Origin: Thermotogaceae bacterium
GTDB taxonomy: Bacteria > Thermotogota > Thermotogae > Thermotogales > Thermotogaceae
Length of the DNA: 64,000 nucleotides
Assembly: GCA_027077795.1 (NCBI GenBank)
Contig: JALWTT010000009.1
Span: 124,001-188,000 of the forward strand
Direction: 5' to 3'
In this document: positions 4,350 through 63,175 of the stretch, piece by piece
How the letters are laid out: each line of letters begins with the position of its first letter
How positions within the stretch are numbered: position 1 is the stretch's first letter
Position numbers and translations under genes: made by a program
The notes under the pieces: model-generated
What the model saw: the letters and a program-made list of their open reading frames with translations, nothing else
Databases searched by the model: none
What the model was told of the DNA's origin: nothing

Positions 4350-5807
4350 TCAGAATTTCTCCCTAACTGAACGGAGTATTTCATAAGAGTTGAAGAATTC
4401 CTCCACGATCTTCGGATCAAACTTTATCCCACTCATTTTCTTCAGATATTCCAGGGTTTCTTCTTCACTCCAAGCCTTTCTGTATACCCTATCGGATCTC
4501 AGGGCATCGTATGTATCCACGATCGATACTATGCGAGCTTCAATCGGAATCTCTTCCCCTTTCAATCCATCCGGATAGCCACTCCCATCCCAGTTCTCGT
4601 GATGCCACCTCGCTATAGTAGCCGCAATTTTGAATATCTCGTTATCGTACTTCGAGAGTATCTCATAGCCTATTGTCGTATGCTTCTTCATTATCTCAAA
4701 TTCACTTTCAGTCAGTCTGTCAGGTTTGTTCAGAACATTGTCTGGTATCCCTATCTTTCCAACATCGTGAAGCATCGATGCAAGCTCTATCATCCTGATT
4801 CTATCCTCATCGTTTATGAACTTTCTAGCCAGAACTTTCGTCATCTCAGACACTCTTTTAACATGCTCTCCCGTTTCCTCAGACCTATGTTCTATCAGAT
4901 CCGCCAAAGTCTGTATCATTTTGTACATCGTGCTCTCGAAGAGCTTCTTTAGCTCCTCGTTTTCAACGGCCGATAGGAGCTGAAGAAACGATACCCTCAA
5001 CGAGTCCCTAAGCCTCTCCCCTAAGCTTTCGGAAAACCTTATCATTATCGTAGCGACTGGCTTTCCCATGGCAGTAGTGCTTATCCTCAAAGTGTTGCTA
5101 TCAACCCACTCAACCCCTTTTTCGCCGGAGATTTCGATTCCTTCAGGTGGATTCTCTCCAAACTCTGTTACCCTTCCATCAACCGATTTTATAGATCCGC
5201 TCACACCTACTCCCCATCTTTTGAAGAGTTCCACAAAAGGGCTTAAAGCTATCATCATGTTGTCTCTTATGAGACCTTTTCGCGAATGCTCGAGTGCGAA
5301 CTCATAAAGTATCCTGTTTATCTCTTTTTCCCTTTCAAAAAAGCTTATATCTCTGTACGACCTTATAGCTGCGAGTATAACTCCAACCATCATCTCGGAT
5401 GAGAGCTCAGTTTTCTCCCTGTAGTCGTTTATGTCGTAGTTCATTATCACATCTTTTCTGGGGGCATATCCGGGTTGACCCGTTCTTATTATCAACCTGA
5501 TCTTGTGGTTCTTAAGCTCCTCCCTTATGTACTTGACAAGATCCAGACCAGCTGACTTATCCTCCATGACCACATCTATAACGGCAACCGCTATGTCCTG
5601 ATTCTCCTTGAGGATTTTCATGGCTTCCTTTTTGGAATAAGCGGATATTATCTCCAGGCCTTTTCCATCGAGTTTTATATCCTTGAGGATTATCTTCGTT
5701 ATCTTGTGCACATCTTCTTCGTCGTCCACTATCAGTATTTTCCATTTATCCTGACTCTTCAAATTATCGCTCTCAGGTTCCTGTGAGAACTTCAGAAATC
5801 TCTCCAA
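4350..5807 (-). CDS. Response regulator with DUF3369 linker and HD-GYP phosphodiesterase domain
   Basis: 485 residues. Receiver domain at about 20-140, with acidic pair V-D-D-E-E-D and phosphoacceptor Asp in V-I-D-V-V-M. A DUF3369-like middle follows at 150-300. The complete HD-GYP domain is at about 305-480: H-V-K-R-V, L-H-D-V-G-K-I-G-I-P, K-K-H-T, H-H-E-N-W-D-G-S-G-Y-P and V-D-T-Y-D-A-L. HD-GYP proteins hydrolyse cyclic di-GMP. TTG start with GGAGGGAG just upstream. It lies 12 bases after the histidine kinase gene, so the two are very likely a cognate pair. Confidence 0.9.
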   Translation of the reverse strand: MERFLKFSQEPESDNLKSQDKWKILIVDDEEDVHKITKIILKDIKLDGKGLEIISAYSKKEAMKILKENQDIAVAVIDVVMEDKSAGLDLVKYIREELKNHKIRLIIRTGQPGYAPRKDVIMNYDINDYREKTELSSEMMVGVILAAIRSYRDISFFEREKEINRILYEFALEHSRKGLIRDNMMIALSPFVELFKRWGVGVSGSIKSVDGRVTEFGENPPEGIEISGEKGVEWVDSNTLRISTTAMGKPVATIMIRFSESLGERLRDSLRVSFLQLLSAVENEELKKLFESTMYKMIQTLADLIEHRSEETGEHVKRVSEMTKVLARKFINDEDRIRMIELASMLHDVGKIGIPDNVLNKPDRLTESEFEIMKKHTTIGYEILSKYDNEIFKIAATIARWHHENWDGSGYPDGLKGEEIPIEARIVSIVDTYDALRSDRVYRKAWSEEETLEYLKKMSGIKFDPKIVEEFFNSYEILRSVREKF

Positions 5808-5819
5808 CTGTCTCCCTCC

Positions 5820-7178
5820 TCAAAGGACCTTAGGTATCATTATCACAAAACGTGTTCCTTGTCCAGGTTCACTTTCGAGGATGATATCACCTCCCAGCTT
5901 TTCCACAACGAGTGAATAGACTATAGCAAGCCCTAAGCCGGTTCCACCTTTACCGATTTTCGTGGAGTAGAATGGTTCAAAAGCTTTCTTCCTGGTCTCC
6001 TCGTCCATCCCCTTTCCATCATCCTTGAAATCTATCTCCACGTAGGACCCTGCATCTTTCACATCTATGTAGATATTTCCGGGACTCTCCCCGTTGTCGA
6101 AAGCATGGATTATGGAATTTTCCAGGAGGTTAGACAAGATCTGCGAAATCGCACTTGGGAAGGATCTCACCTCTATATCCCTAGGGCAGTTCACGTGGAC
6201 ACTAACCCGTGTTTTCCTTATCTTTGGATGAAGAGCCGTTAGGACATCTTTGACAACATCACTTAGGTTGAACTCTATGGGTTTCCCCTCAACCTCATAC
6301 ATGGCCATGGTTTTCAAGCTTCTAACGAGGTCCACTATCTTTTTAACATTTCTCTCTATCAAATCTGCCAAATCCTCGGAGTTCCTGAGAAACTCCTCGA
6401 AAAATTCCTTGGTAATCTTTTCTTCCTCATAAGACTTCCTCAAATTTTCAAGGTATTTTTTCAGCTCCGATGTGGATGTATAGATTATCCCAGCAGGTGT
6501 GTTTATATCGTGGGATATGTTGGCAACTATTTTTCCAATCGACGCCATCTTTTCAGCTTGAACCAGCTGATCCTGTGTTTTCTCAAGGTCCTCTATCGTG
6601 TTTTCAAGCTCTTCTACCGTTGCATTCAGATCCTCGTTAGTCCTTTGAAGCTCTTTCTTCGTCTCGGCAAGTCTTGTGTTGGATAAAAGGAGCAAATATA
6701 TCACGAGAGCCAGCGAGAAGGCGTAAGAGTAAAAGTAAAAATATCTGTGGATAACATAGAACCGAATGAAACCGATCTTACGAACCTTTCCAAAGCTTTC
6801 GTAATACAGATTGAGTGCCGGCAAGTTGTTCTCACCATATCTTTTGATCGTGAAAAGGCCCAACCTCAACATCACCTTCTCGTAATTGCTCAGATTTCTC
6901 TTTCTAGCGTCCAGGAACTTCTCTATTTTCTCGATTCCGCCTTCTCCGAAAACCTGGTAAACCTCCACTCTCATGATGGATTCGGAGCTCAATATCAGGT
7001 TGGCAAGTTTTAAGGTTTCATCGTAGTTGAGTTGCCAAACGTGAGGTTTCATAAACTCTGCATATCTTACCAAAACACTCTTTTCCCTTTCCGCGTTGAA
7101 AAGGATATAAAAAAATACGCTTGCCGCATAAGACCCAAATATTATCAACCCTAACCAAAATGACCTTGGTCTCTTCAT
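5820..7178 (-). CDS. Membrane sensor histidine kinase
   Basis: 452 residues. Two membrane spans (about 7-28 and 145-167) flank an extracytoplasmic sensor of about 115 residues. A long coiled coil (about 168-212) follows, then the dimerisation box with phosphoacceptor His in N-I-S-H-D-I-N-T-P, and a HATPase domain with N box, D-D-G-K-G-M and G-T-G-L-G-L-A-I-V. It should phosphorylate the adjacent HD-GYP response regulator. There is no ribosome site before the ATG. Instead an extended -10 box ends nine bases upstream, which suggests a leaderless message. Confidence 0.9.
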   Translation of the reverse strand: MKRPRSFWLGLIIFGSYAASVFFYILFNAEREKSVLVRYAEFMKPHVWQLNYDETLKLANLILSSESIMRVEVYQVFGEGGIEKIEKFLDARKRNLSNYEKVMLRLGLFTIKRYGENNLPALNLYYESFGKVRKIGFIRFYVIHRYFYFYSYAFSLALVIYLLLLSNTRLAETKKELQRTNEDLNATVEELENTIEDLEKTQDQLVQAEKMASIGKIVANISHDINTPAGIIYTSTSELKKYLENLRKSYEEEKITKEFFEEFLRNSEDLADLIERNVKKIVDLVRSLKTMAMYEVEGKPIEFNLSDVVKDVLTALHPKIRKTRVSVHVNCPRDIEVRSFPSAISQILSNLLENSIIHAFDNGESPGNIYIDVKDAGSYVEIDFKDDGKGMDEETRKKAFEPFYSTKIGKGGTGLGLAIVYSLVVEKLGGDIILESEPGQGTRFVIMIPKVL

Positions 7179-7187
7179 AGCAGTGGA

Positions 7188-7196
7188 ATTATACCA
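7188..7196 (-). promoter_or_regulatory. Extended -10 promoter for the histidine kinase gene
   Basis: On the minus strand TGGTATAAT (TGn plus a perfect TATAAT) ends nine bases before the kinase ATG, at the very end of the chromate-transporter gene. No convincing -35 box is seen at 17 bases, which is normal for extended -10 promoters. Transcription would begin at or next to the ATG. Confidence 0.5.
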
Positions 7197-7727
7197 TCAG
7201 ATGATTCCGATCTTTCCCAAAATGAAACCTGCAGCAGCGAACAGCAAAATGGTCAAAAAAGGGTTCATTCCGAGAAAAACCATTGTAAAGCTCGAAGCCG
7301 CCAGTGCTATAACGATCTTTTTCGGAACATCTATTGCGCTGTAAAGGGAATAGACTGCCATGAGAAGAAGTCCTATTATGGCGGCTTTCATGCCGCTCAA
7401 TACCCAGAAGGCTTCTTTCGTTTTCAAAAGTCCCTTGAGCCCTATAGCTATAACCAATATGACGAAAAATGCCGGGACAACCGCACCTGTCGTGGCCAAA
7501 ACCGCACCTGGAACACCCGCTATTCTGTAACCAGCAAATGTCGCGACATTCACCGCGATTGGTCCGGGGGTGGAGGAGGCTATCGCCACGAGATCCCAAA
7601 ACTCACTCTTTGTGAGCCAACCCCTTCCGACCACCTCACTCTCTATCAAAGGGAGCATCCCATAACCCCCACCGAACCCTATGAAGCCTATCTTGAGAAA
7701 CACCAAGAAAAGCATCAGTAGCTTCAT
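7197..7727 (-). CDS. Chromate transporter family (CHR) single-domain protein
   Basis: 176 residues, nearly all membrane helices. The N-terminal motif [12 protein letters not shown] and the [11 protein letters not shown] segment are diagnostic of the CHR family. Short CHR proteins usually come as adjacent pairs that make one transporter; here only one is present. The start overlaps the mnmG stop (ATGA). The substrate could be chromate or sulfate, or something else; members of this family in anaerobes are mostly untested. Confidence 0.85.
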
Positions 7728-9607
7728 TTTTTCACCCTCTCCAGATATTCGACCAGGTTAGCTATATCGGCGGGACTTACTCCAGGTATTCTCATAGCCC
7801 TTCCTATGGATTCCGGTTTTATCTTGGAGAGCTTTTCTCTGGCTTCCGTTGAAAGATTTGGAACTTTGGAGTAGTCAACGCTCCCTGGTATTCCCATAGA
7901 TTCATACCTTTCGAAGATCCTTATATCATCCATCATCTTCTTTATGTACCCCTCGTACTTTATCTCTACATCCACCTCCTCGGCTATATCCCTTCTCTCT
8001 ATCGGATTTGGATCGAAGATCTTTATCATCTCGTAAGGAACCTGAGGACGTTTTAAGATTCTGTACATACTCGTTGTTTCCTTTATAGGTGATGTTCCAA
8101 GCCTTGCTAAGAGGCTGTTCAGCTTCTCAGATGGCCTAACCTTAACACTTTTAAGCCTCTCCATCTCTTCTCTCACTTTTTCCTGATCCCTTAAAACCTT
8201 CTCGTAAAACCACTTCGGAACTAGAGAAACTCTGTAGCCATATTTTGCTAATCGAAAATGAGCGTTGTCATGCCTGAGAACGAGTCGATATTCAGCCCGT
8301 GAGGTCAACAGCCTGTATGGTTCATCCACACCTTTGGTGGTGAGGTCGTCCACCAGGACTCCTATATACGATTCTGACCTTTTCAAAATCAGAGGCTTTT
8401 CACCTCGAAGCTTCAAAGCGGCGTTTATTCCCGCTAGTAATCCCTGACCGGCCGCCTCCTCGTATCCACTCGTGCCGTTTATTTGACCAGCGAAGTAGAG
8501 TCCTTCGACTATCTTCGACTCAAGGGTCGGGTAGACCTGAGTTGGATCTATGTAGTCGTATTCTATGGCGTAAGCCGGCCTCGTTATGACAGCTCTTTCG
8601 AGTCCTGGTATGGTTCTTACCATCTTTATCTGGGCTTCAAATGGAAGAGAGGTTGAGACACCATTGAGGTAGTACTCATCCGTACCGATCCCCTCAGGCT
8701 CAACGAAAACCTGATGCGAGTCCTTGTTCGGAAACTTGACCACTTTGTCCTCTATCGACGGGCAGTACCTTGGTCCTATTCCCTCTATGAGTTTCACCGA
8801 TCCGTAGAGTGGCGAGAAGTCCAAAAACATCCTTATTATCTCATGAGTCTTGTTGTTCGTTCTCGTGAGCCAGCATGGATGATCCTTTGAAAGAACTCGA
8901 GGATCGTCAAAATAGGAGAACGCCAAAGGCTCATCGGATGTATCCTGGCGTTCCATTTTGGAAAAGTCTATGGACCTTCCCAAAACTCGCGGAGGGGTTC
9001 CGGTTTTAAACCTTCCAACTTTAAATCCAAGCTCTATCAGAGAACTCGTAAGTCCTTTAGCCGGAAATTCCCCCATCCTGCCAGCTTCCATCGTGGATCT
9101 CCCTATGAATATCTTTCCCCTCAAAAATGTTCCGGTTGTTAAAATAACAGCCTTTGCGAAATACCTGTTTCCAAAGTTGTCCACAATCCCTCTGATCTTT
9201 CCCCTATCAGCTAGGAGCTTCTCGGCTATTCCAAACCTTGGAGTGATGTTTTCCTCTTTTTCAACCCTTCTTTTCATCGAGCCGGAGTATCCGCGCCGAT
9301 CCACCTGAGCCCTCAACGCTCTCACTGCGGGGCCCTTTGACGTGTTGAGCATTCTTATGTTTATCATAGTCTCGTCGGTGTTTTTGGCCATTTCACCACC
9401 GAGAACATCGATTTCTCGAACAATCACGCCCTTTGCTGGTCCTCCGATTGCAGGGTTACACGGAGGCCATGCTATCGTGTCGAGATTCCCTGTTATCAGA
9501 AGGACTCTAAATCCTATCCTAGCCGGAGCGAGTGCGGCCTCAACTCCAGCATGCCCCGCTCCAACAACTATCACGTCGTACTCAAAATCCTTCCTTATAA
9601 AAACCAC
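7724..9607 (-). CDS. mnmG: tRNA uridine-5-carboxymethylaminomethyl modification enzyme MnmG (GidA)
   Basis: 627 residues, full length for the family. The FAD-binding Rossmann motif [10 protein letters not shown] is at about 16-25, followed by the GidA signatures [17 protein letters not shown] and [12 protein letters not shown]. Works with MnmE to modify the wobble uridine of several tRNAs. The start is uncertain: GTG at 9607 overlaps its own Shine-Dalgarno (GGGAGG), and the codon eight bases after it is ATA. It heads a tight minus-strand gene string. Confidence 0.96.
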
Positions 9608-51686: not shown

Positions 51687-53036
51687 CTAATCCATGTCCT
51701 CGGGTGTTATGAGAAACAAGCTTGAATTCCTTACGCCCAAAAGATCCTTCTCAAATCCACTTTTGGAGAATATGGCGTAGATCTTTCTCTTTTTACTGGC
51801 ATCTACATACTCGCCTCTGAGAAGGAGTTTCCGGTAGTAGTTTACCCCGACTTTCTTTTTCGACCATTTACATTCTCCAAACAAAACATTCTCCTCGTCA
51901 TAAGCGATGAGATCTATGTCGTATGACTCGCCTTTTCTGTGCGGGACTTTTCCCCAGTGTTTTCCAACAGCTTTTGGTATGAAACCAAAGAAATCCGGAT
52001 TCTCCAAAAGAAATTTTTTGCATATCTCTTCAAATTGGAAACCCATGTACTGGTTAAAGCCATTCCATATAGTTTCAACAGCCTTTTCTGGGGCGTATTC
52101 CATGATGGAATAATTCTTGTAGATATTTCTGAAAAAGAAATTGTAGTAGTGATCAGCGATTCTATACTTGTAACTTCTCTTTTTCCCGGACAGCAAAGGG
52201 CGATCTTTTAGCAGGAGTTCATATACCTGAGAAAGCTCGTTTAGATATTTGGAGAGCTTTGTCACTTCGATGCCAGAGAGATCCGAGATTTCCGATATCG
52301 ATCTCATCCCACCTGCTACCGCTTCCAGTATAGAAAAGTAAGTTTTGTGCTCTGACCCGAATTCAGATATGAGAAGGTTTTTGGCTTCCTCTCTCAAAGG
52401 CGCAAACTCGTCGATGAAAATATCGTAGATGAGTTTTTTGAACGGCTTTTTATCTTTGAAAAGCCACAGATATTTTGGGACTCCTCCAACCATCGCGTAT
52501 ATCTGAAATGCTTCTTTTGCATCGTATCCAAAATCCTTGAGCATTGAGATCGTTTCTCCCAATGGAAACTCCTCGATTTTGACAATTCTATCAGCTCGAC
52601 CAAAAAGAGGCATCTTTTCGTTTGTGAGGATGTCTTTCATCAATCCAACATAAGAACCAACTGCTACGAGTTTGGTACTGGCTTTGCACTCATCCCACGC
52701 GTGTTGAAACGCATAAAGAATACTGGGACTAACTTTGTAAAAATTCTGAAATTCATCGAACACTATGTATTCGTACTTTTGAAAAAGCTCAGAGAAAAGA
52801 TCATACCAGTTTCTATACACGCTCTTTGAAAAGGAAAGACTCAGATCTCTCAAGAGGGTCTCTTCCTTTTTGACTTCAACGAAGTAGTAGAAAGTCTCGA
52901 CGTCTTCAAAAGCTTTCTTTATCAGCGTGGTTTTTCCAATTCTTCTTCTTCCAAACATCACTATGAAATATTTATTCCTCTCTTTTTTTATTTTCCGGAA
53001 AAATTCGAGCTCTTTTTGCCTATTGTAGAATTTCAC
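51687..53036 (-). CDS. AAA ATPase with DUF234 (nuclease-like) C-terminus
   Basis: 449 residues from GTG 53036, seven bases after AAGGAGG; the frame to 53156 covers the promoter. Walker A in G-R-R-R-I-G-K-T-T near residue 25, Walker B Y-I-V-F-D-E-F-Q near 100, a winged-helix middle (S-E-I-S-D-L-S-G), and a C-terminal DUF234 domain with D-I-D-L-I-A and G-E-C-K-W-S, a PD-(D/E)xK-like core. Such ATPases are abundant in archaea and thermophiles and their role is not established. Divergent from the cas operon. Confidence 0.85.
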   Translation of the reverse strand: MKFYNRQKELEFFRKIKKERNKYFIVMFGRRRIGKTTLIKKAFEDVETFYYFVEVKKEETLLRDLSLSFSKSVYRNWYDLFSELFQKYEYIVFDEFQNFYKVSPSILYAFQHAWDECKASTKLVAVGSYVGLMKDILTNEKMPLFGRADRIVKIEEFPLGETISMLKDFGYDAKEAFQIYAMVGGVPKYLWLFKDKKPFKKLIYDIFIDEFAPLREEAKNLLISEFGSEHKTYFSILEAVAGGMRSISEISDLSGIEVTKLSKYLNELSQVYELLLKDRPLLSGKKRSYKYRIADHYYNFFFRNIYKNYSIMEYAPEKAVETIWNGFNQYMGFQFEEICKKFLLENPDFFGFIPKAVGKHWGKVPHRKGESYDIDLIAYDEENVLFGECKWSKKKVGVNYYRKLLLRGEYVDASKKRKIYAIFSKSGFEKDLLGVRNSSLFLITPEDMD

Positions 53037-53064
53037 GGTTTGAGCCTCCTTTGTACCACAAAGT

Positions 53065-53095
53065 ATTATACCAAATAGTATAAAAATTCCAGCAA
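53065..53095 (-). promoter_or_regulatory. Promoter and possible operator of the AAA/DUF234 gene
   Basis: Minus strand: TTGCTG, 19 bases, TATAAT, about 29 bases before the GTG start. The -10 overlaps the inverted repeat TATAC-TATTTG-GTATA, which could bind a dimeric repressor. The 19-base spacing is long. Confidence 0.4.
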
Positions 53096-53134
53096 AATTT
53101 TTCCGATTTTTATCAGTTTCTTTCATATGTTTGT

Positions 53135-53140
53135 TATAAT
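53135..53140 (+). promoter_or_regulatory. Candidate -10 box of the cas operon
   Basis: TATAAT about 100 bases before the cas6 start, no strong -35. Between it and cas6 the 11-mer ATATAAGATCC occurs twice (53157 and 53199, 42 bases apart), a possible regulator site. Confidence 0.3.
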
Positions 53141-53240
53141 GATCCTGGTAAGTCATATATAAGATCCGAATGTGAGCCGCAGTAATGTCCTGTCCATTAT
53201 ATAAGATCCTACCTTTGCCATATTCTGAGGAGGTGACAAG

Positions 53241-53948
53241 TTGGTTTTAGAAGTCTATCTCAAAATATCCACTCAGGCGGTCAGTTCGGATTACAGACGT
53301 TCTTTCATGCATTTGATTAAAGAGGCTTCCAAAGGCACTGAATATGAAGACATAGTTTTGAGCGAAGAAAGAGTACCGAAACCCTATACATTTTCAGTGG
53401 TTTTCAATGATGTAAAAAGCATCACAAGCGAACGTATAGATTTCTCTGGAGAGATGGCGTTTAGATTCTCAAGTGCCATCTTTCCAATGGTTGGTTACCT
53501 TTACAACTACATGAAGAGTCAGAGCTTTATCTCTATTTTTGGATCTGAAATTTTGGAGAAGAGATTCAATCTCGTTCAAAATAAGAGGATCTCTTCAAGA
53601 AAAGTCGAATTTAAGATTTTAGGAGCGGCCGTGTTTACCAAAAAGAATGGGGATCTGATCAATTCACCTGACGATTTAGAAGAATCGATGAATTATTCCC
53701 TTCAAGCAAAAATGGAATATTTGAGGAAGCTTTCAGAAAATGTACCTGCCTTTTCACCCATCAAAGTTTTAGGAAAAGCCGTCAAATACACAAGAGTTCG
53801 CCATTATGGAGGAATGCTTGATGCATTCAGAGGGCATCTTTTACTTGAAGGGGACCCGAAAGTACTTGAATTTGCTGCTCAAATTGGCATCGGTGTAAGA
53901 ACTGGCCAAGGCTTTGGAATGGTGAAGGTGGTGAGGGAATGGAGCTGA
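53241..53948 (+). CDS. cas6: CRISPR pre-crRNA endonuclease Cas6
   Basis: 235 residues, TTG start after GGAGGTGA. Ferredoxin-like RAMP fold; the C-terminal glycine-rich loop G-I-G-V-R-T-G-Q-G-F-G-M is the family mark. A His in S-F-M-H-L-I near residue 23 is a candidate catalytic residue. Cuts the repeat of the array downstream, leaving an eight-base 5' handle (ATGTGAAC). The 3' end overlaps cas8 by ten bases. Confidence 0.9.
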   Translation: MVLEVYLKISTQAVSSDYRRSFMHLIKEASKGTEYEDIVLSEERVPKPYTFSVVFNDVKSITSERIDFSGEMAFRFSSAIFPMVGYLYNYMKSQSFISIFGSEILEKRFNLVQNKRISSRKVEFKILGAAVFTKKNGDLINSPDDLEESMNYSLQAKMEYLRKLSENVPAFSPIKVLGKAVKYTRVRHYGGMLDAFRGHLLLEGDPKVLEFAAQIGIGVRTGQGFGMVKVVREWS

Positions 53949-55426
53949 GAATTTACTCATCAAACTGGCTTCACAACGCGAATGTTTACGGTTTTCTCCG
54001 TGCTCTTGAATGGGCGAGCACTGAAGCGAAAAATCAGGCGGTGAAGATAGAAGTCGATTTCCATTCGATATTGAAAGACGATGGAACCGTGGTAATAGAC
54101 GATGATTTGGCAGAGCAGCTTTATGAGACATCCACGGGATTTCCAAGGCTCGCGAATATATGGATGGGATATAGCTATTATCTTGGGTTGCTTTACAAAA
54201 AAGACGAAAGAAATCAGGCTGGCGACTCTTTGGAAAATGTGGAGTTCGAAGAAGAGATAGAAAAGCTTCATGAGGAAAGAAAGAATATGCTTTTTGGCAA
54301 AGATAGGGCCTATCAAAACCTTATTAATGTTGCTTCTTCGTTTGAAAAATATAGGAATTACATAAATTACATATTCGGGGATCCACGGGAGAGAGTGTCT
54401 CTCAAAAACGGGGAGAAAGAATGCCTTCTGTGTGGAAGAAGATTCACTCCCTATGAGGATATGGAAGAGTTTCACGAATTTTCAGCAAGGCTTTTTGGCG
54501 AGCTTTCATCCTTTGGCAGTTTTCCAAACGCCTTCTGGAATCTGCAAACTGATAGATATGTCTGCAACGTATGCGTTCAAATGGCACTTTTTAGACACAT
54601 TGTTTTCAATAATGATGGAGACTTTTTCATAAACGCACCATCTTTTAAGGCGATATGGTATTTGAACAAGATTGCGGAGGAGTATAGAGAAATGCTCATT
54701 GATTATGAAAGGGTTTCACCCTCAAAAGTGCTTGCAACGGCCGTTCTTGCAACCTCACCAAAGCTTCTCAGAATCTTAGGAACTTGGGCCCGTCAGAATG
54801 TGGAAATAATTCAGTATAGGAAAATACGCCAGCAGAGAAAAGTTAAGAAGTTTTATCTGGTGGATTCGCTCCCACCCAAAATGCTGGATGTTTTTTTCGA
54901 TTCCCGGGTGGCTTATTTGATAAAGCAATTGAGTAAAGGGGAGGGAAATATTTCAAACCAGGAAAGAAGTGAAGCAGAAGTAGAGGATTTAAACCATAGC
55001 AAAATCTTCTCAATGGTTTTAAACGGAGATATCGCGGGTCTTACCGAAGAAGGATATGAAAGATTAAGAGAAGAAATTGTAGATGAAGAGCAAAAAGACT
55101 CTTCTGCGGTGATTGAACTGGCGATAAGGCTCAAGGAAATTCTCAAGGGGGTGAAGGTTTTGGTAAGCCCAGGCAGGTTGAAAGAATTGGGGAGAATGGT
55201 TAAGGATATGTTTAAAAACACAAAGTACAGGCTTCTTGAGCTCGCAAGACTTGGAAGAAGATCTGAGGTCTACCATCTGCTTTTGAGAACCTATATGGCT
55301 CACGGAAGGGAGTTTCCAGAAGAGCTTAACAAGGTGTTTTCAATCCAAGACGAAGAGAATTTTAAGCTTTACATGATGGCTTATATAAGCGGAATGACAG
55401 AAAGCGCGGGAGGTGAAGAAGAATGA
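53939..55426 (+). CDS. cas8: Cascade large subunit Cas8 (Cst1, CXXC-CXXC type)
   Basis: 495 residues. Two Cys pairs, E-C-L-L-C-G near residue 161 and C-N-V-C near 208, fit the CXXC-CXXC Cst1/Cas8a1 family of Tneap-type systems. The surrounding order (cas6, cas8, cas7 of the DevR type, cas5t, cas3) agrees. It should bind the crRNA handle and recognise the PAM, with the Cys pairs holding zinc. Overlaps both neighbours. Confidence 0.85.
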   Translation: MELRIYSSNWLHNANVYGFLRALEWASTEAKNQAVKIEVDFHSILKDDGTVVIDDDLAEQLYETSTGFPRLANIWMGYSYYLGLLYKKDERNQAGDSLENVEFEEEIEKLHEERKNMLFGKDRAYQNLINVASSFEKYRNYINYIFGDPRERVSLKNGEKECLLCGRRFTPYEDMEEFHEFSARLFGELSSFGSFPNAFWNLQTDRYVCNVCVQMALFRHIVFNNDGDFFINAPSFKAIWYLNKIAEEYREMLIDYERVSPSKVLATAVLATSPKLLRILGTWARQNVEIIQYRKIRQQRKVKKFYLVDSLPPKMLDVFFDSRVAYLIKQLSKGEGNISNQERSEAEVEDLNHSKIFSMVLNGDIAGLTEEGYERLREEIVDEEQKDSSAVIELAIRLKEILKGVKVLVSPGRLKELGRMVKDMFKNTKYRLLELARLGRRSEVYHLLLRTYMAHGREFPEELNKVFSIQDEENFKLYMMAYISGMTESAGGEEE

Positions 55427-56424
55427 GAGCAATAACTGGTACGATCGTGTTTGAAGCGAGTGCAGTCAACAGAGATGAAAACATAGGCGGAAATGTACTC
55501 TCTATAAAAAAGCTCAGAAGAGGGGACAAGGTTTTCTCGTTCTTCTCAAGAGCCTTTATGAGGCATAAGCTTTTTAATGCCCTTCATGAAAAGCACGGCT
55601 GGAAGGAAACAACGGTCACTGCGAAAGGTGGAGTTATCCAGTTTGACATTTCTCAAGAAAGTATCCTGACGAGCGAAGAGATGGATTTCTTCGGGTACAT
55701 GTCAACGGTATCTGAGACGGCTGTAAGAAAAGCTCCTGTTGGGCTCACGAAAGCAGTTTCGCTTGAACCATGGAGCGGCGATGTGGCGTTTTACGCCAAT
55801 CACGATCTGGTTGCGAGGGCAAGAAAACAGGGAGAGAACGCAACGCCGAATCCTTTTCAGAGAGAAGAGCACCTGTCACTTTACAAGTATTCATTCGTAG
55901 TAGATCTCGAGAAGGTGGGGGAAGAAGAGATAGTGATTGGGATAGATGAAAAGAAAGCGAAGATGATTTTTGGGATTGATGTGAAAGAAGTGCTCAATAA
56001 CAAAAAAGGTGTTGTGAACACTGAGAAGGGTGAAATCAAGTACGAGAGTATAAACAACAAACTCTATCGCTTTAAGATAGCGCTGAAAGATGAACTGAAG
56101 CGTGAAAGAATCAAGCAATTCTTGGATGTTGTCCTGAACGGCTTCTCGCTTCATTCGTCTACAGAAGACTGGTCTACCGTTCCCGTTTTCGCGGTTGTGG
56201 GGACATTAAACCTTCCTTTGGTTGCGTTCCATTCTTATGTTGAGCTCAAAAACGGAAATGTGGATGCCGACTTGCTCAAGAAAGCTTTTGAAAACACGAA
56301 TGTCGAAGAGGTTTGGGTTTACCCCGGAAGGTTCTCGGTGGATGTGGAAGGAGCTGCCGTGACTGATAGCCCGAAAAAGCTTTACGAGGAAGTGTTCAAG
56401 AGAGTGAAGGAGGGCCTTTCATGA
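55423..56424 (+). CDS. cas7: Cascade backbone protein Cas7 (Cst2/DevR family)
   Basis: 333 residues. N-terminal I-T-G-T-I-V-F-E-A-S-A-V-N-R-D and later K-A-P-V-G-L-T-K-A are characteristic of Cst2/DevR Cas7 proteins. Forms the helical filament along the crRNA. ATG start overlaps cas8; stop overlaps cas5. Confidence 0.9.
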   Translation: MRAITGTIVFEASAVNRDENIGGNVLSIKKLRRGDKVFSFFSRAFMRHKLFNALHEKHGWKETTVTAKGGVIQFDISQESILTSEEMDFFGYMSTVSETAVRKAPVGLTKAVSLEPWSGDVAFYANHDLVARARKQGENATPNPFQREEHLSLYKYSFVVDLEKVGEEEIVIGIDEKKAKMIFGIDVKEVLNNKKGVVNTEKGEIKYESINNKLYRFKIALKDELKRERIKQFLDVVLNGFSLHSSTEDWSTVPVFAVVGTLNLPLVAFHSYVELKNGNVDADLLKKAFENTNVEEVWVYPGRFSVDVEGAAVTDSPKKLYEEVFKRVKEGLS

Positions 56425-57212
56425 AAGCCCTTGTCATAAAGGCTTTCGCACCGACGGCACATTTTTCGATCCCGCATCTTTTTTCTCAGAGAAAGACATT
56501 CCCCATCCCGATGTACTCGACTGCCATTGGGATAATCTGTAACATGCTCGGCTCTCAGGAAAGAATAGATAGATTCCTGAGCACTCCCTTTGAAATGGCA
56601 ATAGTGGGAAAGTACGGGAGCATGGAAAGGGAGTACACATGGCTCAGAAATATTTCTAAAAAAGCACACCTTGACAGGTTTGGAAGCGAGAGCATAAGAA
56701 ATGTTGCAGGGGAAGTCGAGCATCCAGGTGGGCAACTGCCTGATGTGTTTTACACTCTGAATAACGCCTACTTCAACATTTACATACGCTCTTCCCCGCA
56801 GCTCATGGAGATGGTCTTAGATGCCTTTGAAAACCCAAGCCCGCTGGACATCCCACATGCAGGAAGAGCAGAAGATGTGATAGAGAGCCTTGAGGCCGAA
56901 ATGGTTGAGCTTGAGAAAAAAGGAGCGGCCGCGATTCCTGATCCTTACTACACATGGCTGCCGTCGCCGCGCCATTACGCTGGAGATGATGAAAGATACG
57001 GGGAGTTTTACGAAAAGGTAGGCGGGATACTCTTTTTGATTTCAAGTGTTTATAGGGTCGTTGACGGCCAAAGGCATTTTGAAAAGATCGAGGTCAAGCT
57101 CCACCAAGGCGGACTTCCTATACTCTTTCCTGGAGAGGCTTTAACTGTTCCGCATCATGAAACAGAAGACGGGGATCTCCCTGTGTTCTTTGCGAAGGTG
57201 GTGAAAGAGTGA
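56421..57212 (+). CDS. cas5: Cascade subunit Cas5 (Cas5t)
   Basis: 263 residues. N-terminal A-F-A-P-T-A-H-F-S-I-P followed by F-P-I-P-M-Y-S-T-A-I-G, the strand and turn of Cas5 RAMP proteins; central P-S-P-R-H-Y near residue 185. Caps the 5' handle of the crRNA. Four-base overlaps at both ends. Confidence 0.88.
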   Translation: MKALVIKAFAPTAHFSIPHLFSQRKTFPIPMYSTAIGIICNMLGSQERIDRFLSTPFEMAIVGKYGSMEREYTWLRNISKKAHLDRFGSESIRNVAGEVEHPGGQLPDVFYTLNNAYFNIYIRSSPQLMEMVLDAFENPSPLDIPHAGRAEDVIESLEAEMVELEKKGAAAIPDPYYTWLPSPRHYAGDDERYGEFYEKVGGILFLISSVYRVVDGQRHFEKIEVKLHQGGLPILFPGEALTVPHHETEDGDLPVFFAKVVKE

Positions 57213-59542
57213 TTCTTGCAAAGAGTACAGGAAAGACTTTGAAAGAGCACACAAAGTCTGTTATGAAAGTTGCGCGGATAATCGCAAAGAAGCTGGGACT
57301 TGATGACGAAATGGCAAAGCTTCTTGAGATCGCGGCGCACTATCATGATTCCGGGAAGGTAAACCCGGCATTCCAGAAAAGAGTTAAGAACCCTGAATTT
57401 TCAGATGCCGAGCCTGGATTTGAAAATATTCCACATTCTTTTCTGAGCGTCGCTTTCGTTCCGCGCCAGCTTCTTGAAGAGATTGGCGAGGAAAATTCTG
57501 CTATACTTCTCTCTTCGATTGCTTTCCATCACTGGCGAGATTCTTTTCTTTCGTATATGTTCGGGGAAAGGTCAGATGAGGTTAAGAAGGCCTTCAAATG
57601 GATCGTGAGCAATGAAAAAGAGCTTAGAGAGCTTCTTGAAAAAGAAGGAATATCTGCGCAGGTGAACCTTCCTTTGGCTGAGTACCTGACAAAGGCAAGC
57701 CTTTTTGACTCTTCCATGATACTTCCCCCGCACGTTCTTTACACGCTTCCGTCTTTCTTGATGAAAGAGTCAAAACTCAGTGACGATGCATATAAAAAGT
57801 ATGTAATCTTGAAAGGAAGCCTTATGAGAGCTGACAGGTTCGCGTCGATGGCAGATGAAGATCCAAATATAAGCCATCATGAAGTAATTGTTGAGTATCC
57901 GAAAGATCACAGAGAAAAAGTAAAAACTCATATGGAGAAGATGGGATACGACATATGGCAGGAAAGGTATTTGAAAGATAAAAACACCGTTTTGGTTGCG
58001 CCAACTGGTGCTGGAAAGACGGAATACGCACTTTTGTGGTCCAGGGGAAGACTCATTCTGACTTTGCCGCTTAGAAGCGCGGTGAACATGCTCTTTGAGA
58101 GGCTGAAGGACCATTTTGGAGAGAATTATGTGAGCCTTCTTCATTCGGATGCGGATCTTGTCTTATTTGAGAGTTTGACAGGCAAAGCCGCAAATCCCAC
58201 TGAGCTTGAAGGTGAGCTTGAAAAGATAATGTCCCTTTCAAGGTTTCTCTCTTACCCATTCATAGTTTCAACGGGCGATCAGATATTCCTTGCTGCTTAC
58301 AAATATCCTGGATATGAGCTCATGTACTCTGTTCTTTCGGGCGGTGACCTCGTTGTGGATGAAGTGCAGGCTTATGAACCCTACGCTGCCGCTGCTGTTG
58401 TAAAGCTACTTGAAGATGTGGAGAGCTTGGGCGGTAGATTTCTGCTTATGACCGCCACACTCCCGAAATTCATAAAAGATGAGATTGAAAGACGCACCGA
58501 TGCAGAGTTTGTGGATGTGTACGGCGAAGTTGCGGGCAAGAGGCATGTTGTTGAGATAAGGTTTAATAAGAGCGCCCAAGTCGGAACCATGGAAGATCTT
58601 GCACTGGAAAAATTCAAAGAGGGAAAGAGAGTGCTTTTGGTGAGAAACACGGTAAAAGATGCTATCTCCAGTTTTGAAAGACTAAAAGCCCAGGTAGGAA
58701 AAGACGAAATTTTCTTGCTTCACTCGAGGATGACCTACGATGACAGAGCTGAGAAGGAAGAAAGGCTGGAAAAGTTCAAGCCCGGCTCCTTGCAGGGCGC
58801 TGCAATTTTGGTTGCAACTCAGGTTGTGGAAGCTTCACTTAACATAGACTTCGATGTCCTGATAACCGATATATGCCCGGCAGATTCGCTCGTGCAGAGA
58901 ATGGGAAGGGTTTACAGAAAAAGGGAGTATAAATCAGATGAGCCAAATGTGTATGTCTTCGTCTTCTCCGATAAAAATAGCCTGAGATATTACAAAGGTG
59001 TTTATCACAGGTCATCCATCATCTTGACGCTCGCTCATATGCTCTTTGGCGAGATCACCTTGGAAGGAAAAAAGGCTGTGAACAACGCGGAAGAAAAAGT
59101 GAAAAAAGCTTTGAAAGAGCCCGAGATTCTGATTTTTGACTCCCAGGCAAAAAAGGAGCTTGTCGAGGATGTTTACGAGTCGCTTGCGGCAGTGAACGAT
59201 TCGTATTACAAATCTTTTGTGGAAGCTTTGAGAATACTGGATAGCGGCTATATTGCAGAGAGCAGAAATGATGCCCAGAGGATTTTCAGAAAGATCGCAA
59301 CAGTGGATGTGGTGCCGGAGAATTTCGTGCCAGATCTTGAAAAAGAACTAAAAGATGCAAAAACCCCAGTTGAGATAAAGCTCGCTCTCAGAAAATACAC
59401 GGTGCCGGTATCTGCATATTCTCTGAAAAATCTTGGTCCGGAGCTCTACGAGCCAGAAAGCGAATATGCGCGCAGAAGAATGGGAAAGCTTTTGGTGGTG
59501 AAAGGAGTTTATGAGCGCGGAGTTGGCCTTAAAACCAGCTAA
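57209..59542 (+). CDS. cas3: CRISPR helicase-nuclease Cas3
   Basis: 777 residues, GTG start. N-terminal HD nuclease: H14, H46-D47 in H-Y-H-D-S-G-K. SF2 helicase: Walker A A-P-T-G-A-G-K-T near residue 265, D-E-V-Q-A-Y near 381, M-T-A-T-L-P near 413, V-A-T-Q-V-V-E-A-S-L-N-I-D-F-D near 535 and Q-R-M-G-R-V-Y-R near 565. Unwinds and degrades invader DNA recruited by Cascade. The 3' end overlaps cas4 by 32 bases. Confidence 0.95.
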   Translation: MILAKSTGKTLKEHTKSVMKVARIIAKKLGLDDEMAKLLEIAAHYHDSGKVNPAFQKRVKNPEFSDAEPGFENIPHSFLSVAFVPRQLLEEIGEENSAILLSSIAFHHWRDSFLSYMFGERSDEVKKAFKWIVSNEKELRELLEKEGISAQVNLPLAEYLTKASLFDSSMILPPHVLYTLPSFLMKESKLSDDAYKKYVILKGSLMRADRFASMADEDPNISHHEVIVEYPKDHREKVKTHMEKMGYDIWQERYLKDKNTVLVAPTGAGKTEYALLWSRGRLILTLPLRSAVNMLFERLKDHFGENYVSLLHSDADLVLFESLTGKAANPTELEGELEKIMSLSRFLSYPFIVSTGDQIFLAAYKYPGYELMYSVLSGGDLVVDEVQAYEPYAAAAVVKLLEDVESLGGRFLLMTATLPKFIKDEIERRTDAEFVDVYGEVAGKRHVVEIRFNKSAQVGTMEDLALEKFKEGKRVLLVRNTVKDAISSFERLKAQVGKDEIFLLHSRMTYDDRAEKEERLEKFKPGSLQGAAILVATQVVEASLNIDFDVLITDICPADSLVQRMGRVYRKREYKSDEPNVYVFVFSDKNSLRYYKGVYHRSSIILTLAHMLFGEITLEGKKAVNNAEEKVKKALKEPEILIFDSQAKKELVEDVYESLAAVNDSYYKSFVEALRILDSGYIAESRNDAQRIFRKIATVDVVPENFVPDLEKELKDAKTPVEIKLALRKYTVPVSAYSLKNLGPELYEPESEYARRRMGKLLVVKGVYERGVGLKTS

Positions 59543-60038
59543 GGTAACGGGAACGATGGTGGCGTACTACCACATCTGCAAGAGAAAGCTATGGCTCTTT
59601 GCCAAAGGAATGGATTTTGAGCAAATTGTTCCCAACGACGATATCTTGATAGGAAGGCTCATTTCTCAAAAGAGTTTTAACCGAGAAAGAATGAAGGAGA
59701 TTCAGGTAGGAGATAGCGTCATCGACTTCTTGCGGGTTGGGGACAAAATCGTCGTACATGAAGTCAAGAAAAGTCCGAAATTCGAGGATGCACACATCTG
59801 GCAGGTGAAGTATTACATATACCTTTTGAGAAAAGCTGGAATGGATGCATGCTGCGGAGTTATTCATTACCCCAGGAGCATGAGGAAAGTTGAGGTTGAG
59901 TTTTCAGATGAAGATATCAAGGCAATGGAAAAAGCCATTGAGAAAATCAAAGAGGTGGTGAATTCTCCCACTCCACCACCCGTAAAAAGATCTTCCTTTT
60001 GCAAAAAGTGTGCTTATTACGAGTACTGCTATATATAA
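59511..60038 (+). CDS. cas4: CRISPR exonuclease Cas4
   Basis: 175 residues. RecB-like core: L-I-S-Q-K-S-F, D-F-L then V-H-E-V-K-K-S. Fe-S cysteines: one in Y-H-I-C-K-R-K-L-W near residue 21 and three in F-C-K-K-C-A-Y-Y-E-Y-C near the end. Trims prespacers and checks the PAM with Cas1-Cas2. Confidence 0.93.
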   Translation: MSAELALKPAKVTGTMVAYYHICKRKLWLFAKGMDFEQIVPNDDILIGRLISQKSFNRERMKEIQVGDSVIDFLRVGDKIVVHEVKKSPKFEDAHIWQVKYYIYLLRKAGMDACCGVIHYPRSMRKVEVEFSDEDIKAMEKAIEKIKEVVNSPTPPPVKRSSFCKKCAYYEYCYI

Positions 60039-60052
60039 GAGGGGTAGTATCG

Positions 60053-61033
60053 GTGAGAAGTTATTACATCTTCAAATCAGGAAGACTCAGAAGGAAAGAA
60101 AATACGGTCTTTTTGGAATATGAGGAAGACAACAAAAGAAATAGGAAAGTTATACCGATAGAGGACATAGATCAGATCTTCGTCTTTGGGAGCGTGAATC
60201 TTAACACCAGATTCCTTGAATTCGTTGGAAGGTACGAAATACCCATTCATTTCTTCGGATACGAAGGATATTACATCGGGACATATTACCCGCGCGAAAG
60301 AGCCGTTTCTGGTTATGTACTCGTAAGGCAAGTTGAATACTATAAAGACATTGAAAAGAGACTCAACATAGCCAGGAAGATAGTGGAAGCAGCGCTGCAT
60401 AACATAAGGAGAAACCTTACCAAAAAGGGTTATGAAGATATAGCCGAAAAAGTGAAAGAATACGAAGAAAACCTAAGAGACGCGAAAAGTGTGATCGATA
60501 TCATGAGCCTTGAAGCACATGCAAGAAAGACTTATTACTCTGTTTGGGAAGAGATCACAGGATGGCCGTTTGGTGGAAGGGAAATGCATCCGCCGTCCAA
60601 CCATCTCAACGCATTGATCTCTTTCGGAAACGCCCTGATGTATTCGAATGTATTGAAGGAAATCTACAGAACTCCCTTGAGCCCGGCAATAAGCTATCTT
60701 CACGAACCTTCTGAGAAGCGCTTCTCGCTCGCCCTTGATATCGCGGAGATATTCAAACCAGTTCTTGTGGACAAGCTCATATTTCGACTGGTGGATCTCA
60801 AAATGCTGAGCATGGAAAAGCATTTCGTAAGCGGATCATCTGGAACCTTTTTGAACGAGAACGGAAGGAAGATATTCGTACAGGCCTTCGATGAGAACCT
60901 GGTCAAAACAGTTCTTCACAGAACGCTCAAGAGAAAGGTTAGATACAGGGAGCTTATAAGGCTCGACATTTACAAGCTTTTGAAACACATCGTGGAAGGT
61001 ACAAATTACAAACCGCTGAAAGTGTGGTGGTGA
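60053..61033 (+). CDS. cas1: CRISPR integrase Cas1
   Basis: 326 residues from GTG 60053 (GAGGGG upstream; the longer frame overlaps cas4). Start Y-Y-I-F-K-S-G-R-L-R-R-K, typical of type I-B Cas1. Metal ligands: Glu in M-S-L-E-A-H-A, His in Y-L-H-E-P and Asp in A-L-D-I-A-E. Inserts spacers at the leader end of the array. Confidence 0.95.
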   Translation: MRSYYIFKSGRLRRKENTVFLEYEEDNKRNRKVIPIEDIDQIFVFGSVNLNTRFLEFVGRYEIPIHFFGYEGYYIGTYYPRERAVSGYVLVRQVEYYKDIEKRLNIARKIVEAALHNIRRNLTKKGYEDIAEKVKEYEENLRDAKSVIDIMSLEAHARKTYYSVWEEITGWPFGGREMHPPSNHLNALISFGNALMYSNVLKEIYRTPLSPAISYLHEPSEKRFSLALDIAEIFKPVLVDKLIFRLVDLKMLSMEKHFVSGSSGTFLNENGRKIFVQAFDENLVKTVLHRTLKRKVRYRELIRLDIYKLLKHIVEGTNYKPLKVWW

Positions 61034-61036
61034 AAC

Positions 61037-61321
61037 GTGAAGAAAGTGATACTCGTTTATGACATCAACACGGAAGACAAAAGCGGCCAGAAGAGATTGA
61101 ACATAGTCAGGAAAATAGCCCAGAAGTACCTTCATCATGTCCAGAAATCGGTGTTCGAAGGCGAGCTGACGGACGGAGATATAGCGCGGCTCTCGGAGGA
61201 GATAAAAGATGTCGTCGATGCCGTCAAGGACTTCGTAATACTTTACACCTTTCCACCGTCGCTCAACTTCGAAAGAATCTTTCTAACAGACACTCCCGAT
61301 CCCACATCGAACATCATTTAG
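61037..61321 (+). CDS. cas2: CRISPR protein Cas2
   Basis: 94 residues, GTG start. V-I-L-V-Y-D-I-N-T with the first-strand Asp, then Q-K-S-V-F-E-G-E-L-T, as in all Cas2 proteins. Structural centre of the Cas1-Cas2 integrase. Ends 77 bases before the first repeat. Confidence 0.95.
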   Translation: MKKVILVYDINTEDKSGQKRLNIVRKIAQKYLHHVQKSVFEGELTDGDIARLSEEIKDVVDAVKDFVILYTFPPSLNFERIFLTDTPDPTSNII

Positions 61322-61398
61322 CAAAGCTCGCAGTTTGACGCAAAACGCTTGCCACCGGGTCCTTGAAAATCCTTATAATATCTTTAAAAATAAATGCG
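61322..61398 (+). promoter_or_regulatory. CRISPR leader with promoter
   Basis: 77 bases between cas2 and the first repeat. TATAAT at 61374-61379, with TTGCCA at 61349-61354 (19-base spacing). Transcription would start close to the first repeat. Its place beside cas2, and repeats ending in the ATGTGAAC handle, set the array direction. Confidence 0.65.
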
Positions 61399-63175
61399 GT
61401 CCTTATTGTCCTAAGAGGAATGTGAACCTGTCTTTGTCGTAGAATTCATCAACTATTTGAATCGTCCTTATTGTCCTAAGAGGAATGTGAACCGAGAGCA
61501 TGTTGCATGAAGTTATGGAGAAGATGGAGTCCTTATTGTCCTAAGAGGAATGTGAACATGAAATAGATGTTCTGATTCAATACTGCTCGTTTAGTCCTTA
61601 TTGTCCTAAGAGGAATGTGAACCCCTTACAGGTCTTGGAGCTTCGAACGTGTTCACCGTCCTTATTGTCCTAAGAGGAATGTGAACAAAGATTTAGTTGA
61701 CGATAGCGAGCTCGGCAAGTGGTCCTTATTGTCCTAAGAGGAATGTGAACAAAACTTGACAAACGACAATCTGATATGGTATATTGTGTCCTTATTGTCC
61801 TAAGAGGAATGTGAACGCCCGTCTTCCAGAACGATCGCCTTGTGTGCGTTGGTCCTTATTGTCCTAAGAGGAATGTGAACAAACATTCAAAAAATGTACA
61901 AAGTAGACGAGGGTTTGGTCCTTATTGTCCTAAGAGGAATGTGAACCCCATCCAGTAGCCTTTCTTTGCTGCGTATCTCATGTCCTTATTGTCCTAAGAG
62001 GAATGTGAACCCGTCCTTCGCTGTCGTTGTCCACAATTCCGCTCTGGTCCTTATTGTCCTAAGAGGAATGTGAACAAAAGTGAGGGATGGGTGATAAGTG
62101 AACAGCCCGAGTCCTTATTGTCCTAAGAGGAATGTGAACCTTTGCGTCTGTAGCAGAGAGTACTTGTACGGCAGGTCCTTATTGTCCTAAGAGGAATGTG
62201 AACAAAGGTCTAGTTGATGATAGCGAGCTCGGCAAGTGGTCCTTATTGTCCTAAGAGGAATGTGAACTTGGATCAGAAGCGAGAAGCTTTTCGGAATACT
62301 TAAGTCCTTATTGTCCTAAGAGGAATGTGAACGCGGTGAATTTGTACTGTTTGAAGTAAGTTAAAGTGGTCCTTATTGTCCTAAGAGGAATGTGAACCTG
62401 TATTCCTTCTGTCAATAGGAGTCCTTTCCCTGATCGTCCTTATTGTCCTAAGAGGAATGTGAACAGCGCTGGATCTACGGCAAAGAGAAAGGAAACGGGG
62501 TCCTTATTGTCCTAAGAGGAATGTGAACTAACACGCTGAAAACGAAAATAACATCATAACGGGGTCCTTATTGTCCTAAGAGGAATGTGAACTCTGACCG
62601 GCTATCGGAATAACCCCGCCCATGCTCGGTCCTTATTGTCCTAAGAGGAATGTGAACTTCGATCACCACCTTTAGTCGTGAGGTATAACCTTTGTCCTTA
62701 TTGTCCTAAGAGGAATGTGAACGCTTCTTGCCTCTGGGACAGATTACTCTGTAACCGGTCCTTATTGTCCTAAGAGGAATGTGAACGTTATCTCTTCATC
62801 CTTTATAACACTCACATCCCTCAGTCCTTATTGTCCTAAGAGGAATGTGAACTTATATCCCTACCCCATTAAAAATGCTGAGGTCGAGTCCTTATTGTCC
62901 TAAGAGGAATGTGAACCTATTCACAAGAGTAGGAGTATTAGGCAGGGCTACGTCCTTATTGTCCTAAGAGGAATGTGAACTACTCTACCACCTAGAATTT
63001 CAAGCTGCCTCATAATTGTCCTTATTGTCCTAAGAGGAATGTGAACGCCTTCCCTCATATCGATAGAATTTCTCTCACCATGTCCTTATTGTCCTAAGAG
63101 GAATGTGAACTTTACATTGTTTAATACTTTAACAAATTTGACATAAGTCCTTATTGTCCTAAGAGGAATGTGAAC
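61399..63175 (+). CRISPR. CRISPR array, 28 repeats and 27 spacers
   Basis: The 29-base repeat runs GTCCTTATTGTCC then TAAGAGGAATGTGAAC. All 28 copies appear identical, including the leader-distal one, so no decayed end is visible. Spacers are 35-38 bases. The fifth (61687-61721) and thirteenth (62204-62238) differ at only three positions. The sixth (61751-61787) holds a consensus-like promoter. The identical repeats and intact cas genes suggest an active system. Confidence 0.98.

Follow-up and report, generated by a model that had tools for sequence, protein, structure and literature searches.

Pairs of near-identical CRISPR spacers in Sulfolobus islandicus, which match at 88% or more of their bases and differ by up to four SNPs, have been attributed to separate acquisition events, drawing on the same element or on one related to it (Held et al., 2010, PMC2946923). 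Two similar spacers with others between them can also lie within one array as a result of duplication inside it (PMC11472070, PMC8047081), and a survey of 24,090 spacers found such duplication to be far commoner than reacquisition or independent insertion (PMC11472070). Two further type I-B systems bear on how a site might be captured again. In Haloarcula hispanica, adaptation requires a partly matching spacer (PMC3936756), and in Thermotoga maritima a mismatch at any of positions 1-5 or at 7 abolished or nearly abolished binding of the target, for which the PAM is YYD (PMC13199841). The array of a Thermotogaceae bacterium described here holds two near-copies that resemble the S. islandicus pairs, although those are found across strains and are mostly offset, while these share both an array and a register. 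They were probably captured separately, from two variants of one virus or mobile element that had diverged from each other.

The array occupies positions 61399-63175 (+ strand) of the window, the 64,000-nucleotide stretch of DNA that was analyzed, and consists of a 29-nt repeat, GTCCTTATTGTCCTAAGAGGAATGTGAAC, present in 28 identical copies, together with 27 spacers that measure 35-38 nt. Copies of this repeat with up to two mismatches occur in the 1.72-Mb genome only in this array. On the same strand, directly before the array leader, is a complete type I-B cas operon (53241-61321), which was identified by Pfam and NCBIfam matches and contains cas6 (53241-53948), a gene for a cas8-like CXXC protein (53939-55426) whose name is based solely on its position and a weak Pfam Cas_CXXC_CXXC match, cas7 (55423-56424, Cst2/DevR Cas7), cas5b (56421-57212, Cas5b, or Cas5t), cas3 (57209-59542), cas4 (59511-60038), cas1b (60047-61033, Cas1b) and cas2 (61040-61321), where the NCBIfam matches of Cas7, Cas5b and Cas1b are above their cut-offs. 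The operon is adjoined on the opposite strand (51687-53156) by a gene for an ATPase_2/DUF234 protein. The host genome groups with 13 other genomes of the same family, and T. maritima-type repeats are present in related genomes of this family.

Three of the other spacers have recognizable targets in sister species. Spacer 1 (61428-61463, + strand) matches a serine recombinase gene of the distant CcrB/XisF type in genome G098 with six mismatches and a 5' flank of CCG, and spacer 9 (61947-61981, + strand) matches a second target in the same gene with eight mismatches and a 5' flank of CCA; third codon positions account for five of the six mismatches of spacer 1 and for six of the eight of spacer 9. 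This gene (L020, on contig G098:C97, 152-1681, - strand) lies beside a tRNA-Glu gene (5-79), and the locus is probably an integrated element to which the host lineage has been exposed. Spacer 6 (61751-61787, + strand) has an exact 37-nt target, also with a 5' flank of CCA, at 2554-2590 of L019 (contig G099:C69), upstream of a gene of the phage-repressor HTH type; an S24-peptidase repressor and a gene encoding a NYN-domain protein lie on the same contig. The array thus samples mobile elements found in sister species, with one gene family sampled twice. The flanks on the PAM side (CCG, CCA and CCA) fit YYD, in a comparison of only three targets, of which two share a gene. The viral contigs searched contained no relatives of the G098 recombinase or of a Thermotoga-family RecT gene, and the remaining spacers, joined into one query, gave no match in phages. 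A related genome contains a region of phage-like genes, including those for a repressor and a RecT-like protein (L028, contig G095:C5, about 5649-9182), near a serine recombinase gene (L029, 127-1536), and this region, too, is probably an integrated element.

The orientation of the array determines the relative age of its spacers, since new spacers enter at the leader end. The 77 bases between cas2 and the first repeat (61322-61398, + strand) end in AAATAAATGCG, which resembles the bases that precede the first repeat in arrays of four related genomes (G089, G092, G093 and G097). Because of this likeness, and because CC lies 5' of the three matched targets, the leader is most likely on the cas2 side of the array. 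Spacer 1 would therefore be the youngest, and spacer 5 younger than spacer 13.

Spacer 5 (61687-61721, + strand; AAAGATTTAGTTGACGATAGCGAGCTCGGCAAGTG) and spacer 13 (62204-62238, + strand; AAAGGTCTAGTTGATGATAGCGAGCTCGGCAAGTG) are the near-copies. A re-reading of the array confirmed the preliminary description in that both are 35 nt in length and that positions 5, 7 and 15 are the only ones at which they are unlike. They are identical at 32 of 35 sites in the same register, and the differences (A/G, T/C and C/T, respectively, in spacers 5 and 13) are all transitions. When all spacer pairs, both strands and a range of registers are taken into account, the chance of such a match is about 1e-11 or less; the pair scores 27.5, the next-best pair in the array scores 10.5, and there are no other alike pairs among the 27 spacers. 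Frame +1 does read KDLVDDSELGK in one and KGLVDDSELGK in the other, with one replacement and two silent changes, but the silent pattern, which had been put forward as evidence of independent capture, carries no weight. In this frame 14 of the 35 possible transitions are silent, so that two or more silent changes out of three have a probability of 0.35, and frames -1 and -2 are also open in both spacers, making frame +1 one possible reading. Hence the clue does not discriminate between the explanations. Frame -3 of both spacers reads LAELAI[V/I]N-stop.

The more telling evidence comes from the repeats. All 28 are identical, whereas 3 of 35 sites (8.6%) are unlike between the two spacers, and a divergence that is not shared by the surrounding repeats favors separate capture over duplication followed by mutation. 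The main rival is a duplication inside the array, by recombination or replication slippage between repeats, after which the remaining duplicated units would have been lost and three mutations would have arisen in the copies, and this we regard as improbable. With neutral mutation at equal rates in spacers and repeats, about 35 substitutions would be expected over the 28 repeats and 11 in the nine nearest, whereas the latter contain none (P ~1e-5). If the lowest plausible divergence is assumed, duplication is still rejected by the full set of 28 repeats (P=8e-4) but not by the nine nearest alone (P=0.10). Selection or gene conversion acting on the repeats could weaken this argument.

Duplication does have the general frequency of the process on its side, as well as the shared register and length of the two spacers and the occurrence of separated duplicates in the family. 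In one array of genome G093 (L072, G093:C1:1106500-1111500), spacers 13-14 recur exactly as spacers 21-22; six unrelated spacers separate the two blocks, which lie at the same distance, eight, as spacers 5 and 13. The absence of duplicated neighbors, the second reason given in the preliminary description, does not exclude duplication, as the recurring G093 spacers illustrate. Nevertheless, the known duplicates in relatives are exact, including a tandem duplicate in an array of G089, unlike the present pair with its three differences amid identical repeats. In 299 spacers from 18 arrays of eight family genomes, in-array duplicates are exact and the spacer 5/13 pair is the sole non-exact near-copy in the same register. 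Some related arrays hold repeat variants. Nor does the pair have the form of a plain array duplication, in that the neighbors of the two spacers are unlike and three sites distinguish the copies. As proposed previously, the best explanation is independent capture from diverged elements, although not for either of the reasons then offered.

The exact register is where the comparison with Sulfolobus counts against separate capture in this array, since 37 of the 41 independent pairs in that genus are offset (PMC2946923). It counts for less because the start of a spacer is anchored by the PAM and because 35 nt is the commonest spacer length in the array, so that two spacers would have the same length by chance with a probability of 0.37. 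The expected number of same-site pairs is 0.01 to 0.4 by a rough count that varies with the size of the element and the share of spacers that come from one lineage, and by this count one such pair in the array is not far-fetched. Within the same array one element family has been sampled more than once: spacers 1 and 9 match one recombinase gene and both targets are CC-flanked. In the related genome G091, the second spacers of two arrays (L082 and L086) represent the same site: their 5' ends coincide, one is 37 nt long and the other 36 nt, and their flanking spacers differ. Spacer 24 of L079 and spacer 22 of L082, also in G091, are offset but read one peptide, MYPDG..KE, with differences that are mostly silent, which suggests that one gene was captured from diverged elements in one genome.

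Two other explanations are less likely still. An assembler might have joined spacers of two strains into one array, and the genome is indeed an incomplete assembly of 16 contigs in which repeats would be hard to assemble, but the array is flanked by unique sequence within a contig of 212,798 bases and its repeat units are all regular, making such a mixture very unlikely. Alternatively, both captures could have come from one element with two diverged copies of the site rather than from two variants. The same pattern would result from paralogues of this type, but no example of them was seen and the genome outside the array lacks a copy of either sequence with up to three mismatches, and we consider this explanation to be the most remote of all. 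Two separate captures from two variants are preferred to both.

Protospacers for spacer 5 or 13 were likewise not found in 103 genomes of the phylum, species genomes, IMG/VR, phages and plasmids, in searches that mostly used exact or near-exact patterns and by which diverged sources would be missed. BLAST searches of both spacers against phages and plasmids gave partial matches only, with E of 1 or worse. Several candidates were rejected. For the pattern K[DG]LVDDSELGK, a candidate UvsY protein in viral contig L011 matches in the pattern itself alone, at about the level of chance and with the CC flank absent. Matches to DUF1642 phage proteins in L031 and L032 were also discarded, those in six genome contigs are unrelated, and those in the phylum occur at a rate near that of the control, with 13-18 mismatches in the ones that were checked. 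The reverse-frame pattern LAELAI[VI]N-stop was found in three viral contigs, none of which is within 30% mismatches of a spacer, and in the phylum only in the array itself. An exact 16-nt core of the spacers is present in five viral contigs that have 12-15 mismatches overall.

The proposed sequence of events begins with spacer 13, which would have been captured first from one variant at a PAM-anchored site. A variant encountered later would have differed at the three positions, two of which, 5 and 7, fall within the T. maritima I-B seed, an enrichment that is not significant (P=0.07). Provided that the T. maritima seed rule holds in the host species, the crRNA of spacer 13 should bind the spacer 5 variant poorly. 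Cas1-Cas2 would then have retaken the same site to yield spacer 5, and priming from spacer 13 may have assisted in this. By analogy with H. hispanica, a spacer acquired earlier that matches a variant invader in part can promote the capture of new ones from it; however, primed adaptation yields spacers around a site, and retaking the same site is not its signature (PMC3936756). What we infer, then, is a source of two variants, the order in which they were captured and a plausible escape followed by recapture. That the array is a record of escape and update, in which a variant altered at seed positions 5 and 7 evaded spacer 13 and the cell then took exactly the same site again, is a tentative reading that we think is somewhat doubtful.

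The spacer 5/13 pair serves as a single good example of a site being captured repeatedly, a process that is already known. The general lesson is that diverged spacers beside identical repeats argue against array duplication better than do silent sites in 35 bases. If the reading of escape and update is true, a single array holds both the earlier and the later version of one step in an arms race. Should both source variants come to light, the pair would document, in order, the encounters of one host lineage with two versions of a single element, and the seed rule of the T. maritima type I-B system could be checked against a natural case.
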